From contig NZ_LMUO01000015.1 of the NCBI RefSeq assembly GCF_009765905.1, positions 402,219-466,218 on the forward strand: a stretch of DNA of 64,000 nt, read 5' to 3'. The stretch's first letter is position 1. Each line of letters begins with the position of its first letter. The stretch is from Mucilaginibacter sp. L196. Lineage in GTDB: Bacteria; Bacteroidota; Bacteroidia; Sphingobacteriales; Sphingobacteriaceae. The notes under the pieces are model-generated. The model was not told the origin of the DNA. It was given only the letters and a program-made list of their open reading frames with translations, and made no database searches. The position numbers were made by a program, and so were the translations under genes. Shown here piece by piece: positions 497 to 64,000 of the stretch.

Positions 497-1129
497 TTAC
501 ACCAGATTTTCCCGGATGAAGAATTTTTGGATAGTATCGGGCTTGGTCATCAAGAAGGTTTGGAGTCCTAATTGTTTTGCGGTTTCAAGATGCTGTGGGC
601 TATCGTCAATAAATAAGGTTTCGGATGGATTAAGGCTATTCTCGTTTAATACCTGCTCAAATATAGCGGCCTCTGGCTTACGTTTGCCGGTAAGGTGAGA
701 GTAGTAGGTCTTCTCAAAAAATTGATCGTTGTTAGGCATGCCGAATTCACTTTTTAAGTATTCATGCACATAATCGTAATGAATAGCATTGATATTGCTT
801 AGCAGGAATGTGCGGTATTGGGTTTTCAACTTTAGCAATAGTTCATGATTTCCGGCTGGTATCCCAACAAAAATGGCATTCCAGGCATCGTCGATTTGCC
901 GATCGGTAAGGTCGGGCTTTTGCGCAAGCTCTCTGATACGGTCGCGAAATGTGGCATTGCTTATCTCGCCACGCTCTAATAAATTAAATACAGGATCTTG
1001 CTGGCGATGCCCGTAAAATTCATCTGCATTGTTGATACCCAGGTTTTTCCATGCTTGCTGCACCTTGGTAAAATCGATATTGAAGATGACGTTGCCATAG
1101 TCGAAGATTATATTTTTAATATTTTGCAT
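497..1129 (-). CDS. HAD-superfamily hydrolase (HAD-IA, YihX-like phosphatase)
   Basis: A 210-residue protein, the normal size for HAD-IA phosphatases. Near the N terminus it has FDYGNVIFNID, the motif I region with the nucleophilic Asp and Gly replacing the usual second Asp, as in the YihX/glucose-1-phosphate phosphatase branch. Motif II is LLSNINAIH, a Lys lies in GKRKPEAAIF, and motif IV is LFIDDSPQHLE. It probably removes phosphate from a small sugar phosphate or nucleotide in the cytoplasm; the substrate is not predictable. I chose the ATG at 1129 (MQNIKNIIFDYG) because the upstream in-frame residues do not fit the fold. It ends upstream of the terminator at 365-390 and its 5' end is 67 bases from the tRNA gene. 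Confidence 0.85.
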   Translation of the reverse strand: MQNIKNIIFDYGNVIFNIDFTKVQQAWKNLGINNADEFYGHRQQDPVFNLLERGEISNATFRDRIRELAQKPDLTDRQIDDAWNAIFVGIPAGNHELLLKLKTQYRTFLLSNINAIHYDYVHEYLKSEFGMPNNDQFFEKTYYSHLTGKRKPEAAIFEQVLNENSLNPSETLFIDDSPQHLETAKQLGLQTFLMTKPDTIQKFFIRENLV

Positions 1130-51083: not shown

Positions 51084-53117
51084 ATGGAAGAAAGCAAAGA
51101 GCAGCAAAGCCAGCATAGGTTTTTGCAGGCCGCCATCTATTTGTCCGTAGCACTCGAAATATTTTGCTTTATCTACGGCCCCCAATTATTACAAAGCCAT
51201 GCCTACAAAGGCCTGGCTTTTTTTATTGACCGGCTGCACCGCCTGAAGATTTACCAGCAACCGCTATACAGCAAGCTTTTTACCCTGATCCTGATCTGCC
51301 TCGTATCCGTCGGCACACTTAGCAAAAAGCAGCAGGATTTTAATCCTAAAAATTCGGTCGCTTATCCTTTGGGTTCAGGTTTACTGTTGTTTTTCGGAGG
51401 CTTATGGTTTTACGGACATTCGGGTTTGCCTGTCTTTTATGGCTTAAACTGGTATGAAATTGCCTATATCGCTTTTGCATTTACGGGAACTGTTCTGATC
51501 CACACTTCAATGGATAACGTTTCCAAAATGATCAGCGCCAGGCTTGGCAAAGACCGCTGGAACGTGGAGGAAGAATCGTTTATGCAGCGCACCACGCCTT
51601 TGCTGGCGACTAATGCGATAAATATCCCGACCTTGTTTTATTTCAAAAAGAAAGTACACCGGGGTTTTTTGGTCTTAGAGAATTTATACCGCGGAATTTT
51701 GCTTTTAGGCGTTCCAGGATCGGGCAAAAGCTTTGGAATTGTGATGCCGGTGATCCGCCAAATGCTGGCTAATCAATTTACCCTTTGCGTATATGATCTG
51801 AAATTTCCGGACTTAGGTAAAGTAACCTATTATCATTACCTGCTTGCTAAACAAAATCAGAAATGCAAAGGCTACACCTTTCATGTAGTGAACCTGAACG
51901 ACCCGGAGAAAAGCAGGCGGGTTAACCCTTTTAACAAGAAGTATCTCAAAACCCTTGCTGATGCCTCCGAAAATGCCGAAGCATTAGTAGAAGCATTAAA
52001 AAAAGGCGATAAGAGCGGTGGCAGCGACCAATTTTTTACGCAAAGTGCTGTCAATTTTTTAGCGGCCTGCATTTACTTCTTTAGTAAATATGAGGACGGT
52101 AAATATTCCACTTTACCTCATGTGCTGGCTTTTTTAAACCTGCCTTACGAGGAAGTGTTTACCACGCTCTTTTCAGAGCCAGAACTGGCCTCATTACTAT
52201 CACCATTCGTAACTGCTTACCGGGCAAAAGCCTTTGAGCAGTTGGAGGGACAGGTCGGCACCTTGAAGATCTTTATTAGCCGTATGGCGACAAAAGAAAC
52301 TTTTTGGGTATTCTCCGGTGATGATTTTGACCTAAAAATAAGCGACCCTAAACATCCCGGAATTTTGGTGCTGGCCAACGACCCAAGTACCCAAAGTATC
52401 AATTCCGCCTGCTATTCTGTAGTGATGAATTGCATCTTGCGCGAAGTCAATTCTAAAGGTAATATCCCAGTCGGGATTGTGGTCGACGAAAGCCCAAGTT
52501 TATACTGCCACCGGGTAGATGTATGCGTTTCCCAGGCACGAAGTAATCGCGTATCTGTCCTTTTGGGAATGCAGGAGTTACCAATGCTCAGGCAGCAATA
52601 TGGTAAAGAAACCGCCGAAACAATTACCTCGGTCATGGGCAATGTATTGTCAGGATCAGTGCGGAATAAAGATACATTGGAATGGCTGGAGCGGTTGTTC
52701 GGCAAGGTTAAACAAACCGGCGAAAGCCTGAGTATTGACCGCAATAAAACATCGCTATCCTTAAATGAGAAACTCGAACCGCTGATCCCAGCCGGTAAAA
52801 TAGCTTCCTTAAAAGCCGGGGAAATGGTAGGGCTTTTAGCATCGGATGCGGTAGAAAAATATACCGGAAAATACGAAACTTCCGCTATCAATTGCCGCAT
52901 TAACCTCGACCTTAATGCCATAAAGGCCGAGGAAAAAGCTTATCAGGAATTACCGCTATTCTATGACTTCAAGGGAAAAAAGGACGACATACTGCGGAGC
53001 AATTACTTGAGGATCACGAATGAAGTGCAAGCCATGACCATGACCTTCCGGAAAATACCGCCACAACAACCAGCGGGTACAGCAAAAGGCACCATGAGGC
53101 CTGCTCACAAACATTGA
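51084..53117 (+). CDS. Type IV coupling protein (VirD4/TraD-like)
   Basis: A 677-residue ATPase. The N-terminal 150 residues hold several membrane helices, and a soluble ATPase domain follows. Walker A is GVPGSGKS at residues 209-216, and Walker B VGIVVDESPS (Asp468). CVYDLKFPDLGKVTYYHYL and VSVLLGMQELPMLRQQYGKE are typical of Bacteroidetes coupling proteins. It brings the relaxase-DNA complex to the channel. Its placement after traN rather than beside the relaxase differs from CTnDOT. Confidence 0.93.
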   Translation: MEESKEQQSQHRFLQAAIYLSVALEIFCFIYGPQLLQSHAYKGLAFFIDRLHRLKIYQQPLYSKLFTLILICLVSVGTLSKKQQDFNPKNSVAYPLGSGLLLFFGGLWFYGHSGLPVFYGLNWYEIAYIAFAFTGTVLIHTSMDNVSKMISARLGKDRWNVEEESFMQRTTPLLATNAINIPTLFYFKKKVHRGFLVLENLYRGILLLGVPGSGKSFGIVMPVIRQMLANQFTLCVYDLKFPDLGKVTYYHYLLAKQNQKCKGYTFHVVNLNDPEKSRRVNPFNKKYLKTLADASENAEALVEALKKGDKSGGSDQFFTQSAVNFLAACIYFFSKYEDGKYSTLPHVLAFLNLPYEEVFTTLFSEPELASLLSPFVTAYRAKAFEQLEGQVGTLKIFISRMATKETFWVFSGDDFDLKISDPKHPGILVLANDPSTQSINSACYSVVMNCILREVNSKGNIPVGIVVDESPSLYCHRVDVCVSQARSNRVSVLLGMQELPMLRQQYGKETAETITSVMGNVLSGSVRNKDTLEWLERLFGKVKQTGESLSIDRNKTSLSLNEKLEPLIPAGKIASLKAGEMVGLLASDAVEKYTGKYETSAINCRINLDLNAIKAEEKAYQELPLFYDFKGKKDDILRSNYLRITNEVQAMTMTFRKIPPQQPAGTAKGTMRPAHKH

Positions 53118-59017: not shown

Positions 59018-59851
59018 ATGAGCAATATTCTTTATAAAACACCGATTAGTTACTATGGCGGTAAACAAAATCTTGCTGAAAAGATAATTACGCTGATACC
59101 GCCGCATGTTCTTTACGGAGAACCGTTTACAGGTGGTGCCGCTGTCTTTTTTGCCAAACGGCCCGCCGAAGTAGAGGTACTTAACGATACCAATGGTGAA
59201 TTAATGAACTTTTACCGCGTCGTAAAACAAGATTATGCCATCCTGTTTGAGGAAATACGTGTTACACTTCACAGCCGCGACCTGCACCGGCAGGCAACAA
59301 TCATTTACAATAACCCGGATATGTTTAATCCGGTTAAACGTGCCTGGGCGATTTGGGTGTTAAGCATTCAAAGTTTTGGCTCTATGCTGGACGGTGGCTG
59401 GGGCTATGATAAAATTGCTAATACGGTTCCGCAAACGCTGGCTAACAAAATAGAACAGTTTACCCTGCGTATTGCCAAACGTTTACAGAACTGCCAGATC
59501 GAAAGCGCGGATGCATTGTATATCATTAAAAGCAGAGACACTGAAAAAAGCTTTTTCTATTGCGACCCGCCTTATTTCAATTCCAACATGGGACATTATG
59601 ATGGCTATTCCGAGCAGGATTTTGAGAATTTGCTGTCTTTACTGGCAAAAATAAAAGGGAAGTTTTTATTGTCGGCCTATCCGTCCAGCATATTAGCGCG
59701 GTATGTTAAGCAATACCAATGGGAGGAATATGCCATCGTGCAACCTATTGTTGTTAATGCCAAAAACCGCAAGCAGAAACTAAAAACCGAGATGCTGGTC
59801 GCTAATTACCCTTTTCATCTGGCACAGAACTATAGTCAATTATTATTCTAA
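59018..59851 (+). CDS. Dam-like adenine-specific DNA methyltransferase (D12 class)
   Basis: A 277-residue enzyme of the alpha (D12/Dam) type. The AdoMet motif is ISYYGGKQNLAEKIITLIP with the typical EPFTGGAAVFFAKRP, NDTNGELMNFYRV follows, and the catalytic motif is FYCDPPYFNS (DPPY). No restriction endonuclease gene is adjacent, so it is an orphan methylase. With ArdC it probably protects the element against restriction in new hosts. A terminator follows. Confidence 0.9.
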   Translation: MSNILYKTPISYYGGKQNLAEKIITLIPPHVLYGEPFTGGAAVFFAKRPAEVEVLNDTNGELMNFYRVVKQDYAILFEEIRVTLHSRDLHRQATIIYNNPDMFNPVKRAWAIWVLSIQSFGSMLDGGWGYDKIANTVPQTLANKIEQFTLRIAKRLQNCQIESADALYIIKSRDTEKSFFYCDPPYFNSNMGHYDGYSEQDFENLLSLLAKIKGKFLLSAYPSSILARYVKQYQWEEYAIVQPIVVNAKNRKQKLKTEMLVANYPFHLAQNYSQLLF

Positions 59852-59976: not shown

Positions 59977-60219
59977 TTATACTACCACTCGGTTTTCCTC
60001 AACTTGTCTTAATAGTATTTCCAGACCTTCATCCCGGCTCATGATATTGCCCAGTTCCTTTAAGGATTGTTTATCCTCATAAATACCATTGGGATCATTC
60101 CAGGCCAGCCATTCAATGATATCATTTCTGTCCATTCCATTAACCAGTAACAGAAATTTATCCTCCGGAATTCCGGTGAGGGATTGATAAGTATAGCCAC
60201 TATTTTTCCAGAAATTCAT
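59977..60219 (-). CDS. Small acidic protein, unknown
   Basis: An 80-residue protein, MNFWKNSGYTYQSLTGIPED, with DDIIEWLAWNDPNGIYEDK-type acidic and aromatic segments and a helical end. It is divergent from the gene at 60277 with 57 bases between. A pair of small divergent genes can be an immunity or toxin-antitoxin unit, but nothing in the sequences shows this. Confidence 0.6.
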   Translation of the reverse strand: MNFWKNSGYTYQSLTGIPEDKFLLLVNGMDRNDIIEWLAWNDPNGIYEDKQSLKELGNIMSRDEGLEILLRQVEENRVVV

Positions 60220-60276: not shown

Positions 60277-60567
60277 ATGATTACCGAAATATCAACCATT
60301 CCAGATGTGGAAGACTTTATGAGGCAACTGGTTCAGGAAGGCACCAATGCTCATCCTGACGAAGATTTCAATAATTATGTTCATATGGAAACCGGGATAC
60401 CGGCTTATACGCATGAAGAAGCGGCGGAAAGGAACCGGTTAATGGGTAAGTGTATTACGGTTTGTGAAGCCGCCGGACAGGATGTATATAGTGTCATGCA
60501 GGAAATTTTTCTGATCGAAACAGGTCTGGATAAATATATTCCACTGCCATCCAGTATATATATTTGA
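60277..60567 (+). CDS. Small acidic protein, unknown
   Basis: A 96-residue helical, acidic protein, MITEISTIPDVEDFMRQLVQ, with NRLMGKCITVCEAAGQDVYS in the middle. It is divergent from 59977-60219. No family is recognised. It lies just upstream of the KaiC-like operon, 65 bases from its first gene. Confidence 0.6.
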   Translation: MITEISTIPDVEDFMRQLVQEGTNAHPDEDFNNYVHMETGIPAYTHEEAAERNRLMGKCITVCEAAGQDVYSVMQEIFLIETGLDKYIPLPSSIYI

Positions 60568-60632: not shown

Positions 60633-61451
60633 ATGGATTTAACTCCTTATTCCCGTTCCGACGGATTTATAGCGCTTGAAAAGGCGACGGTTGCAAACGG
60701 CTTTATGGGTAAATTTGTTGTTGATTCTGAGTTGACAGATACCCATAAAACAAACTTCCTGGACCATCTGCAAGTCTTCGATATCTCCGGGATTTTGAAA
60801 ATTGAAGATTATTGTTGCGGATTTTTCAGGCAAAACAAATACTTGGGTAAAAGTGCCACCGACCCTTCAAAGCCTTTTGTCAGAATTCTACCCTATGAAA
60901 AGTTTGTTGAATGGATAAATAAGATCACCCTTCTAAATCTCGAAGCATTAATTGAAACTGTTTTCGATTCAGGTATTGACGAGAGTTTAAGAATTTTCGC
61001 CTTCGAACAGTTGATAAACGCCGATATCAAACCAAGCATCCTAAGTGATCCGGATGAATGTATTAAGTTTTTTTCAGTACCTAAACTTCCACTCTCGGTT
61101 GCACCTGAACTAAAAGAAGCATTGACAAGTCAGTGGGGTATGTGGAGTTTTCCCTTTCCCGAAGATGAAAGTGATATTTTTGCACCCTCTAAACTTAATA
61201 GTTTGGATTGCCGCGCCGGCCTTACAGAGGGGATTAATTTAGATAAGGTTGTATACACACATTCAGTACAAGAATGTAACAAAGTCAAGAAGCCAACCGT
61301 ATATGATGCAGAGTTTTATGATCAATTCATGCCCGGAGGTAAAACAGTTCCGTTAGCTGCGTGTAATACTTTGGACGGTTTTGACGAATATTTCCATGTG
61401 CCTAATAAATTTAAGCATATTTTAGATAAGTTCGCGTTAATTATTAAGTAA
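60633..61451 (+). CDS. Unknown protein, first gene of the KaiC-like ATPase operon
   Basis: A 272-residue cytoplasmic protein without a recognised domain: MDLTPYSRSDGFIALEKATV, KTNFLDHLQVFDISGILKIE, then a helical middle and a tail with FYDQFMPGGKTVPLAACNTL. No catalytic motif is visible. The next gene begins two bases after its stop, so they are co-transcribed. It is more AT-rich than the conjugation genes. Confidence 0.7.
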   Translation: MDLTPYSRSDGFIALEKATVANGFMGKFVVDSELTDTHKTNFLDHLQVFDISGILKIEDYCCGFFRQNKYLGKSATDPSKPFVRILPYEKFVEWINKITLLNLEALIETVFDSGIDESLRIFAFEQLINADIKPSILSDPDECIKFFSVPKLPLSVAPELKEALTSQWGMWSFPFPEDESDIFAPSKLNSLDCRAGLTEGINLDKVVYTHSVQECNKVKKPTVYDAEFYDQFMPGGKTVPLAACNTLDGFDEYFHVPNKFKHILDKFALIIK

Positions 61452-61453
61452 AT

Positions 61454-62473
61454 ATGCAGGATACCTTGTTAAACACCCGCGCTTTAGATCTTAAAAATCT
61501 TATTTTAAATCCAGGGGAACCCGACAGAGAAGGGTTTACTTTGCTTGATTTTCGGATTGAGAAAAACAAAAAGCTGGAACCGGGTTCAAAAAAACAAGAA
61601 GAGGAACAGAACATTGTAATATCTCTGTACAATGAACTTTTTGAATTTGCACCCCAGGATATTTCACAACTAATAAGCTATATCAATAGATCAAAGCTGG
61701 ATACGGATGATATTATTGACCAGTTATTATCTTTTCTGAATCTGCCTGATGGCAAGAATCTTAAGGTTTTTCAAAAAGCTGAACTGGTTAAATTTTTAGT
61801 TTCCAAGAAACCCGAACTTGTCGATCCTGAACTTATTAATACAGATCTTGCCGAACTACAAATATCCAGTCCTTGGTTATACGTTAGTCTTCTTTCTGAA
61901 AAATCAAAAGAAGCGGCAGTGGAGTTAATTAAATTCCTTATAGCAGATAACCGTTTTGAAAAGACAGCATTTCTCAATCTTTTTATGAAATGGCTGGGAA
62001 CTCCTGACACTTTTTTTCTTAAAAAAGTTTATAAAGAATTACTTCCGTTGATTGGCGATCTGAATTTCACCAAATTGATGAAAGCGAAATTGGGTGCTGA
62101 TATGGTTAAAGAGATTGACTCCAGAAAGGAAGAAATTACTAAGATCGTGGGTCAACTGAATCAGATAAAAAATCCCGAGTTGATTTCAAGAGCGGAAATA
62201 TACAAAGTTGTTAAAATACGAGAAGCTAATCATCCCAAAGTAAAGACAGGATCCTCAAAGATTTTAGGGCGAAAGGGGGCTTTTATCTCCGGACGCTTGA
62301 GGCGAAGATACTATGGAAAAAAATCTAAAGATTATGACAGGGAGACTATTCAAATTTTAACGAATACTATTGCTTATCCATCGAAACCCCAGGTAATTGA
62401 ATTTAAGCCGTTATTAGTAAAATCCGACGCTTATATTGGGTTTAAAAGAAATGTTTTGAGGCAAATGAAATAA
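61454..62473 (+). CDS. Unknown helical protein, second gene of the KaiC-like ATPase operon
   Basis: A 339-residue protein, almost all helical, with repeat-like segments (LISYINRSKLDTDDIIDQLL, LYVSLLSEKSKEAAVELIKF, LLPLIGDLNFTKLMKAKLGA) and a basic C-terminal region (RKGAFISGRLRRRYYGKKSK) that could touch nucleic acid. No known domain. It is one base from the ATPase gene downstream and two from the gene upstream. Confidence 0.72.
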   Translation: MQDTLLNTRALDLKNLILNPGEPDREGFTLLDFRIEKNKKLEPGSKKQEEEQNIVISLYNELFEFAPQDISQLISYINRSKLDTDDIIDQLLSFLNLPDGKNLKVFQKAELVKFLVSKKPELVDPELINTDLAELQISSPWLYVSLLSEKSKEAAVELIKFLIADNRFEKTAFLNLFMKWLGTPDTFFLKKVYKELLPLIGDLNFTKLMKAKLGADMVKEIDSRKEEITKIVGQLNQIKNPELISRAEIYKVVKIREANHPKVKTGSSKILGRKGAFISGRLRRRYYGKKSKDYDRETIQILTNTIAYPSKPQVIEFKPLLVKSDAYIGFKRNVLRQMK

Positions 62474-62474
62474 A

Positions 62475-64000
62475 ATGGTTAAACCAGAATTTAAGATGAA
62501 GGGGATATATCATTATATGTTTCCAATACTTTGGGATTGTATTTCCCAAGCTTTGGAATTATGTATAAGTTATAGTTCACCTGAAAAAAGAGATTTATTG
62601 GTTGAAACAAATCCAGAGTTAATCAAGTGCTTTGCCGATGTCTTAAAAATTACCCCCAAGGCGGATAAGCATATTGTTGAGGGATTGTATGAGTCACATC
62701 AGGATCGACAAAAACAATATCCCCGTGTTTTAAAACTTACTTTAAGGGCGTTTGATGATGCCCAGCAAATTGGTTCCAGAAAAGACAAATATTTAATCCC
62801 ATCACCTCTTTATATAATTTATCAGCTACTTACTGTTCCTGATAATTCGTTTACTGCGGCCTATTCGATTACAGCCTGCAAGTCTTTTTTATACTATATA
62901 CTAAACATCCACCCCCAAAGACATAAATCTGAATCTAATAATCCGGAATCCCGATTGTTTACAGAAAGTCAGGTAATGGACGCATTAGCAGATTTTGAGG
63001 GGTTTGATATTCAGAGCGGTCGTTGGCCAAAAGAGTTCCTTAATGTTGAAATGGACTATTCAGGTTCGGTCAAAATGCCTATTATTAAATCGTTTGTTGG
63101 TCATTTTCTCGCTGCAAAAGGGATCGCCCACTTATGGTTTCCAGATAAAGATAAAGCACTTGAGTTTTTAACTAAAGATAAAGCAAATACTTTTATTGAC
63201 AGTTTGAGAAAAAAAATCGCTCGTGTTAAATTCCGTAAGTCTGCTCATTACCGTGAATTGCCGGAATGGGGAGAAGTCATTAACCAGATATTTGGCTTTC
63301 CAATTCCTATTAAAGGAGCTGAGGTGGTTTTCTTTGGTGGGCTAAAACCAGCATCTGACGGCGGATTGGTGATAAGTGTAAGCGGAAGAGCGGGGGTTGG
63401 TAAAACTTCATTTGCTTTGGCTCTGGCGAATTCGTTTTCGCCCTTTGGCACGTCCTGTTTTTACATATCTCTTGAAGAAAATGTAGATGATATTGAAAAA
63501 AGGATATTGACAATTAAACCCCAAGTTGAAAAGGAGCTTAATTTTTTTAATGGGAAGATGAATTGGTTTTTCGGCATAGATTTTCCAGGACGAGTTGCTA
63601 TCGACGCGTTGTCGGCCGAAATAAATGCAATTGCAGATGACCTGCACACAAAAAAAAACAAATCTATAAAAGATGAGAAGGTAATCGCCTGTCCATACAT
63701 ATTTGTAATTGATAATATAAACGAGTCTGTTATTGATTTCGATAATAACTATTATCAACAAATTGAATACTTCATAGAAACCTGTAGAAAACTTAATTCT
63801 ATTATTCTGATTTTAACTCCCGAAAGCATCCCTGAAAAGCTTAAAATAGAATACCTTGTAGACATCGGAATTGAATTGAAGCACAAAGGTGTCGATATAG
63901 ACGATGATAAACCAATTCGGATTTTCAATCTGTTTAAAACAAGACATCAGTTGTCCAGGCAAGGAGCACACATTTTTCACATGACAGGCAAAGAGGGATT
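62475..64000 (+). CDS. KaiC/RadA-like RecA-fold ATPase with novel N-terminal domain (partial)
   Basis: At least 508 codons, open to the window edge, so the C terminus is missing. Residues 1-270 are a helical domain that I do not recognise. From about 275 follows a RecA-like core: FGFPIPIKGAEVVFFGG, Walker A SGRAGVGKTSFALALA (304-312), the catalytic Glu region CFYISLEENVDDIEKRI (Glu334/335), Walker B YIFVIDN (Asp413), and late in the core RIFNLFKTRHQLSRQGAHIF, the KaiC/RadA strand pair with the basic KxR finger. It has no zinc finger as in RadA. It starts one base after the previous stop. With the two upstream genes it forms a three-gene system of unknown role, located in the cargo zone of the element. 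Confidence 0.82.
   Translation, partial: MVKPEFKMKGIYHYMFPILWDCISQALELCISYSSPEKRDLLVETNPELIKCFADVLKITPKADKHIVEGLYESHQDRQKQYPRVLKLTLRAFDDAQQIGSRKDKYLIPSPLYIIYQLLTVPDNSFTAAYSITACKSFLYYILNIHPQRHKSESNNPESRLFTESQVMDALADFEGFDIQSGRWPKEFLNVEMDYSGSVKMPIIKSFVGHFLAAKGIAHLWFPDKDKALEFLTKDKANTFIDSLRKKIARVKFRKSAHYRELPEWGEVINQIFGFPIPIKGAEVVFFGGLKPASDGGLVISVSGRAGVGKTSFALALANSFSPFGTSCFYISLEENVDDIEKRILTIKPQVEKELNFFNGKMNWFFGIDFPGRVAIDALSAEINAIADDLHTKKNKSIKDEKVIACPYIFVIDNINESVIDFDNNYYQQIEYFIETCRKLNSIILILTPESIPEKLKIEYLVDIGIELKHKGVDIDDDKPIRIFNLFKTRHQLSRQGAHIFHMTGKEG

Follow-up and report, generated by a model that had tools for sequence, protein, structure and literature searches.

What is the role of a three-gene operon that carries a KaiC-like ATPase and stands beside restriction genes? 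The question is raised by three genes, here called A, B and C, at the end of a 64,000-nucleotide stretch of the Mucilaginibacter sp. L196 genome (the window; G000:C8:402219-466218, G000 being this genome). Our preferred answer, whose chances we judge to be about even, is that A-B-C is an exchangeable KaiC-type ATPase accessory or control module of restriction systems that resemble MZA. The modular linkage of the trio to MZA-like operons is itself well supported. The three genes are:

60633-61451, plus strand: gene A, an open reading frame of 272 amino acids with homologues in genomes G150 and G929 and in contig L020.
61454-62473, plus strand: gene B, an open reading frame of 339 amino acids with homologues in the same three places.
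62475-64000, plus strand: gene C, with 508 of its 851 codons inside the window (open reading frame, Pfam family PF06745 and an alignment of five sequences).

The original prediction, made from the window alone, had proposed a three-gene unit here, and when its coordinates were recomputed the gaps of 2 bases between A and B and 1 base between B and C were the same. It had also proposed reading past position 64000 for the end of the ATPase and for further genes. C ends with a stop at G000:C8:467248 (65030 in extended window numbering), which gives a full length of 851 amino acids and a second RecA-like domain, and a methylase and an MZA-like operon come next.

Five C loci are known: our own, those in G150 and in G929 (a genome of the same genus as the window), the viral contig L020, and L012 from a Ferruginibacter metagenome-assembled genome (MAG). 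G150 and L013, a Bacteroidetes MAG, are treated as the same contig because their gene positions match. Since every one of the five came from a search with C or a C profile, any locus that has A and B and lacks C would be missed. The order A-B-C recurs in four of the five, an MZA-like core is present in three, and a DNA methylase lies in or adjoins the block in four. Co-occurrence elsewhere, on which the original prediction depended, is therefore found, and the homologues of A, B and C in the same order make the unit more than chance.

In all three Bacteroidota loci that have A, B and C (our own, G150 and G929), the trio is joined to an MZA-like restriction operon. MZA is the PADLOC and NCBIfam name for MzaABCDE. 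In our own genome the block runs on one strand as A-B-C-Vsr-(insertion sequence)-Dcm-MzaB-MzaC-MzaD-MzaE, followed by a giant sacsin-like gene; by family, the genes after C encode Vsr, a transposase and Dcm, and then proteins of the GHKL ATPase, Z1, DUF4420 and AIPR families. PADLOC recovers MzaB (2.5e-111), MzaC (1e-164), MzaD (1.6e-19) and MzaE (1.8e-86) in order. G150 reads Dcm-A-B-C-MzaB-MzaC-MzaD-MzaE, all co-directional, with matches of 7.3e-98, 3e-156, 7.7e-16 and 7.2e-89 to MzaB through MzaE in order. G929 reads Vsr-A-B-C-Dcm-MzaB-MzaC-MzaD-MzaE, again co-directional and with the same four matches in order (6.4e-50, 2.5e-92, 1.9e-12 and 2.7e-61); a coupling protein and a relaxase are nearby. 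The gaps inside and flanking the trio in these three operons range from -4 to 139 bases.

The likeness to MZA lies in the GHKL ATPase, Z1 helicase, PD-(D/E)XK, AIPR and Dcm functions that follow A-B-C. The difference is that our own block falls below four NCBIfam equivalog cut-offs and has no PADLOC match to MzaA among its nine scanned proteins (nor does the protein of L003:4833-5876 match MzaA). MzaB through MzaE score 442 of the 850 bits required, 622 of 1500, 125 of 420 and 368 of 1050, respectively, and since all four miss, we call the core MZA-like and not MZA proper. The original prediction had suggested a possible undescribed defence system. A conserved unit beside defence genes is indeed present; in the three Bacteroidota loci with A, B and C it does not stand by itself, being joined to an MZA-like operon.

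The trio does not share the history of the genes it adjoins. A quick tree of MzaC from 23 loci, 20 without and 3 with the trio and with some long branches among them, scatters the three trio loci; three changes are needed, and the starred branches force three. Between our own genome and G929, C is 50% identical, and MzaB, MzaC, MzaD and MzaE are 30, 31, 26 and 35% identical. The closest MZA core to our own is in G768, which has no trio, and here the same four proteins are 73, 68, 58 and 67% identical. Vsr and Dcm cannot separate the lineages, as their identity is 55-70% in every pair compared. The MzaC tree and the gene-by-gene identities together show that the trio, as far as these sequences record its history, moves independently of the MZA core and has been inherited apart from it. 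The trio is also inserted at three different points: before Vsr in our own genome, between Vsr and Dcm in G929, and between Dcm and MzaB in G150.

Other genes are found beside MzaB as well:

L056:12064-15516: an insert with a Mrr_N/GmrSD_N protein, an AAA_15/AAA_21 protein and a third gene.
L057:12188-12961: an insert with a NOV_C protein.
L066:12352-13137: an insert with a NOV_C protein.
L068:6803-7981: an insert with a protein without an assigned family.
L059:11710-16619: an insert with a kinase/ORC-CDC6-like protein and a putAbiC protein.

These differing inserts suggest that the place beside MzaB is a general slot for exchangeable accessory modules. They also lend themselves to another explanation, in which A-B-C is a self-standing anti-phage or anti-plasmid system, with its effector in A or B, that inserts at MZA-like defence hot spots; the inserts in L056, L057, L066 and L059 are unrelated to the trio and occupy this very place. 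The viral contig L020 fits such a system too, as it carries the trio without MZA at a prophage end, by a tRNA-Pro gene and an N6/N4 methylase. Yet in G929 and G150 the trio lies inside a tightly packed co-directional operon and not beside one, and a GHKL-type gene follows C even in L012, which by PADLOC is a non-MZA locus. The searches recognised no known effector domain in A or B, a weak argument because undescribed effectors would escape as well. We regard a self-standing system as possible, though on balance unlikely.

The trio is rare. Of the genomes searched, C occurs in 2 of 395 for the class, 1 of 395 for a phylum sample, 2 of 300 for the order and 1 of 10 for the order of G150, while a profile of A alone found 2 of 390 class genomes (G000 and G150), the same two as C. 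The counts for C include G000 or G150 themselves. MzaC occurs in 23 of the 300 order genomes, none above the curated cut-off, and both order genomes with the trio belong to these 23. With our own genome given beforehand, the chance of the second trio genome having MzaC is 22/299, or about 0.07, so we rely instead on the fact that the trio is physically inserted in three operons. Searches beyond these genomes added little. No C relative was found in plasmid and phage records, and a single-sequence scan of genome contigs for C returned nothing; an alignment scan of genome contigs, restricted to two short patterns, gave two loci. Viral contigs gave no match to the A profile, and a domain 1 scan returned the L020 record again with eight weak partial matches. 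One candidate relative, L054, is a DnaB helicase.

What kind of ATPase is C? Its parts are:

62475-63260, plus strand: N-terminal domain, residues 1-262, with limits set by hand on the alignment of five C proteins.
Residues 263-545, plus strand: KaiC-like domain 1 (PF06745, fold search of the G150/L013 homologue, alignment).
Residues about 575-851, plus strand, outside the window: degenerate RecA-like domain 2 (fold search, alignment).
63384-63410, plus strand: domain 1 P-loop GRAGVGKTS, residues 304-312, with G309, K310, T311 and S312 invariant in all five C proteins.
63705-63725, plus strand: domain 1 Walker B region VIDNINE, residues 411-417, with V411, D413 and E417 invariant in all five.
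63936-63971, plus strand: domain 1 K-x-R motif KTRHQLSRQGAH, residues 488-499 (motif search, five-C alignment).

The original prediction had read a complete set of KaiC/RadA core motifs behind a domain that it could not place, and both points stand. GRAGVGKTS begins at residue 304, SLEE at 332 (followed by N), VIDNINE at 411 and KTRHQLSRQGAH at 488, where K488, T489, R490, Q492, S494, G497 and H499 are invariant in all five proteins. The GKTS, the EE pair, the Walker B aspartate and the K-x-R are present in every C protein. The N-terminal domain is still unplaced, as the profile of residues 1-262 found no relative in the PDB (best match 0.37).

PF06745 (KaiC) matches full-length C of our own genome with an E value of 8.5e-9 (35.5 bits, cut-off 26.6); in each of the five C proteins it passes its cut-off and outscores every other Pfam family. 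In our own C it is the sole Pfam family over cut-off; in L012, L020 and L021 one general AAA family passes too. A profile of the five proteins ranks KaiC first in the PDB (1.6e-7). An AlphaFold model of the G150 protein, built on an alignment of four sequences, found KaiC in all of the best 50 Foldseek matches listed (top match 2gbl, E 4.4e-18). Aligned with KaiC by VIA-align, residues 276-826 of the model give a Z score of 17.8, with a root-mean-square deviation of 17.5 Å over 359 residues; so large an overall deviation is expected if the two domains are wrongly placed relative to each other. Domain 2 alone (560-825) aligns with KaiC CI at Z 16.8 (3.4 Å, 197 residues). On this same part, Z scores of 16.2-16.5 are also obtained with RAD51-type and DnaB chains, a tie by the rule of VIA-align, so domain 2 is best called RecA-like, without a firm subfamily.

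Domain 2 differs from domain 1 at its putative active site. Its P-loop is GxGSxGKAx in all five C proteins (GFGSAGKAG in our own), in which an alanine replaces the threonine or serine that should bind magnesium; DGLHNV is also present in all five. Neither S[CL]EE nor K.R.Q.S..G.H, both patterns of domain 1, was found again by a motif search in domain 2 of any of the five. On the evidence of these motifs and the model, C is a two-domain KaiC-type protein with a predicted degenerate second site. Given the intact motifs of domain 1 and the alanine in the domain 2 P-loop in every C protein, we infer one working and one non-hydrolysing site.

C might instead be an ordinary RadA, DnaB or housekeeping KaiC protein of the element, with A and B as unrelated small genes. 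Weak matches to DnaB_C and to the RadA model sms give this idea some footing, yet the first reaches 21.3 bits against a cut-off of 27 and the second 12.5 bits where 403 are needed. KNRFG, a motif of RadA/Sms, is missing from all five C proteins, and in our own C only KaiC passes among Pfam families. RadA and replicative DnaB identities were thus rejected, and the RadA and DnaB models tested do not support the ordinary RadA or replication protein that would have undone the original prediction. A housekeeping KaiC was rejected as well. Four order genomes (G302, G733, G900 and G877; E about 1e-7) reach just 28-30 bits with the C profile, and the one that was read, G302, has an ordinary two-domain KaiC of 587 amino acids; setting these four aside reduced the order count from 6 of 300 to 2 of 300. 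As A and B also accompany C in four of its five loci, the housekeeping explanation is already contradicted, and we consider it very improbable.

Proteins A and B were said in the original prediction to have no known domain, and this held through every search made. Pfam assigned no family to any of four relatives of each; PADLOC and PHROGs gave no match to A or B from our own genome, G929 or L020; and NCBIfam gave none to our own A or B. Family profiles of A and B found nothing significant in the PDB, and the best match (0.025, histone H2B) is taken as chance. The same applies to the sub-threshold Pfam matches of A (Glyco_trans_4_3 at 0.0044 and DUF4806 at 0.061 in G150, PomA at 0.061 in our own) and of our own B (DUF4351, 0.17). 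The C-terminal part of A is nevertheless marked by nine residues identical in its four relatives: P221, T222, D225, F228, P234, G236, T238, P240 and L241. Between our own genome and G929, A (35% identity) and B (24%) are more diverged than C (50%). The prediction had also pointed to a basic tail on B. The last 90 residues of B do carry a net charge of +17 in our own genome and in G929, but the tail is not conserved, the charge being -2 in G150 and +3 in L020, and it cannot be essential to the trio.

Several observations weigh against an exchangeable control module of MZA-like systems. Among the 21 other order genomes with MzaC, 20 were read around MzaC (G992 was left out), and none of these 20 MZA-like loci has A, B or C within 16-20 kb. 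The MZA core therefore does not need the trio. The trio in turn occurs without MZA in the 14 kb of L020 that were read, where tRNA-Pro, A, B, C, a convergently adjoining N6/N4 methylase and then phage-like genes (by eye) mark a prophage end. In L012, the 1.2 kb that can be read before C contains neither A nor B. The structural evidence has its own soft spots. The AlphaFold model of the G150 C protein has a mean predicted local distance difference test score (pLDDT) of 57 and a predicted template modelling score of 0.43, and a model of A was discarded at a pLDDT of 39. The domain 2 profile found no significant match in the PDB, and when the profiles of the two domains were compared, the P-loop alone aligned, at a probability of 4%; the identity of domain 2 thus rests on the fold search and the motifs.

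In L012, C lies directly before a GHKL-type gene (by eye) that has a PADLOC match to PDC-M33A (3.8e-19) and no Pfam match, and that PADLOC does not class as MZA. Three genes follow C there (L012:3793-7220), this GHKL-type, PDC-M33A-like gene and two without a significant family, and they are perhaps a further GHKL defence system that uses C. Behind the MZA-like operon of G150 is a protein with a HipA C-terminal domain (L007:5780-6721).

The surroundings of our own trio bear on how it travels:

51084-53117: TraG/TraD-type coupling protein, upstream of the trio.
Scanned from 54226: ArdC protein, upstream of the trio.
59018-59851: D12 methylase, upstream of the trio.
L002:7753-8641 (G000:C8:467752-468640): IS4/IS5-type element between Vsr and Dcm, with a DDE_Tnp_1/DUF4096 transposase.
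L002:18085 to L003:3622: the giant gene, 2 bases past MzaE, with a sacsin-type domain at its start.
L003:7381-8676: tyrosine integrase, 21 kb beyond the end of the window.

With the coupling protein, ArdC and D12 methylase upstream and the integrase downstream, the gene content makes our own trio and its MZA-like block look like cargo of an integrative conjugative element. The original prediction had placed the trio just past the ArdC/methylase end of a conjugative element, where defence genes tend to be carried, and the coupling protein, the integrase and the MZA-like operon uphold this placement. The insertion sequence measures 889 bases, with 14-base inverted repeats at its ends, and the giant gene behind MzaE has a sub-threshold NOV_C match at its end. 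Between the MZA-like block and the integrase, the protein of L003:4833-5876 looked SIR2-like by eye but matches no Pfam or PADLOC family. Two small divergent open reading frames without a Pfam match (window positions 59977-60219, minus strand, and 60277-60567, plus strand) lie between the D12 methylase and gene A. At 60559 stands a match to a Bacteroides-type promoter pattern; it was dropped, because the window holds 54 matches of this kind, no more than the 75 expected from shuffles.

A place between the ArdC/D12 methylase end and the restriction genes would also be plausible for an anti-restriction function. A-B-C could thus restrain the MZA-like nuclease, as an immunity or anti-restriction device that shields the element or the host during transfer or replication, and the pairing of the trio with a methylase alone in L020 would suit such a role. 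Against this, the 20 MZA-like loci without the trio indicate that restraint by it is not required, and no conjugative genes were recognised by eye in 54 kb of G150, a stretch that was not scanned with a family library. We consider restraint improbable.

How does the trio compare with systems already described? Miller et al. 2022 (PMC9523054) present a putative Z1/DUF4220/Dcm defence system of types I and II, and in the available text MzaA is a sigma factor. Besides Z1, DUF4220 and Dcm, type I has "three additional genes", which go unnamed in the readable text. These may be A-B-C, in which case the trio has perhaps already been catalogued. The word KaiC does not occur in the main text of that paper, and type I is not said there, as far as its accessible text goes, to have AIPR, unlike the operons of our own genome, G150 and G929. 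The MORC/paraMORC systems of Iyer, Abhiman and Aravind 2008 (PMC2292703) share, in the portion available, operons of GHKL, SFII helicase, RE-fold nuclease, Dcm, Vsr and AIPR genes. They differ in that this portion describes none of the three genes of the trio, and the main text mentions neither KaiC nor RecA. CglI and NgoAVII (PMC4267653) resemble the MZA-like core, in the part of that paper available, in a Z1 helicase-ATPase coupled to a nuclease, a C5 methylase and ATP-driven cleavage; as described there, they have three genes only and no GHKL, AIPR or KaiC-like ATPase. KaiC clock and signalling ATPases share with C the tandem RecA-like domains, the P-loop, EE and K-x-R of domain 1 and the fold, at the Z score given above. 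C has an extra N-terminal domain of about 260 residues, its domain 2 is without the P-loop threonine or serine and the EE and K-x-R patterns of domain 1, and its partners A and B are not identified as KaiA or KaiB. A literature search for the protein names mzaB, mzaC and mzaE brought up nothing but papers with other topics, and no description of an A-B-C trio was found in the open-access papers searched.

A possible mechanism for an exchangeable control module can be outlined. C would assemble into a ring of the KaiC type, single or double. Its domain 1 would bind and hydrolyse ATP with its Walker A, its EE pair and a K-x-R finger supplied by the neighbouring subunit, and domain 2, holding nucleotide without turnover, would serve as the conformational read-out. 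The two faster-diverging proteins, A and B, may be client or sensor subunits. The ATP state of C might then set the release of A and B, or their docking on the complex of GHKL ATPase, helicase and nuclease. By analogy, the MZA-like core would be the DNA-attacking part, and the trio an ATP-driven switch that licenses or restrains this attack upon foreign DNA or phage activity, in either direction. A control unit fits the plug-in behaviour of the trio. To our knowledge, no trigger has been established for MZA-like restriction systems. In the available parts of the sources, GHKL proteins of such operons are proposed to act in DNA looping and complex rearrangement (PMC2292703), and in CglI, a Z1-type enzyme, ATP hydrolysis by the Z1 protein is coupled to cleavage by the partner nuclease (PMC4267653).

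Finally, a broader proposal is tentative. Built on a double-domain KaiC-type ATPase whose second ring would be pseudo-active, the trio could be a mobile unit of immune control that has not been described before. Unrelated DNA-attack cores would share it as an ATP-driven sensor or timer that sets the moment of their firing; these cores would be a methylase-bearing prophage, another GHKL system and MZA-like systems whose lineages are deep and separate. Natural operons with and without the trio around closely related cores, as in our own genome and G768, make it a ready test object. A cassette with a clock-type ATPase that enters MZA-like operons at several points would give these systems an added layer of control, and the trio points to a role of KaiC-type ATPases in bacterial immunity.

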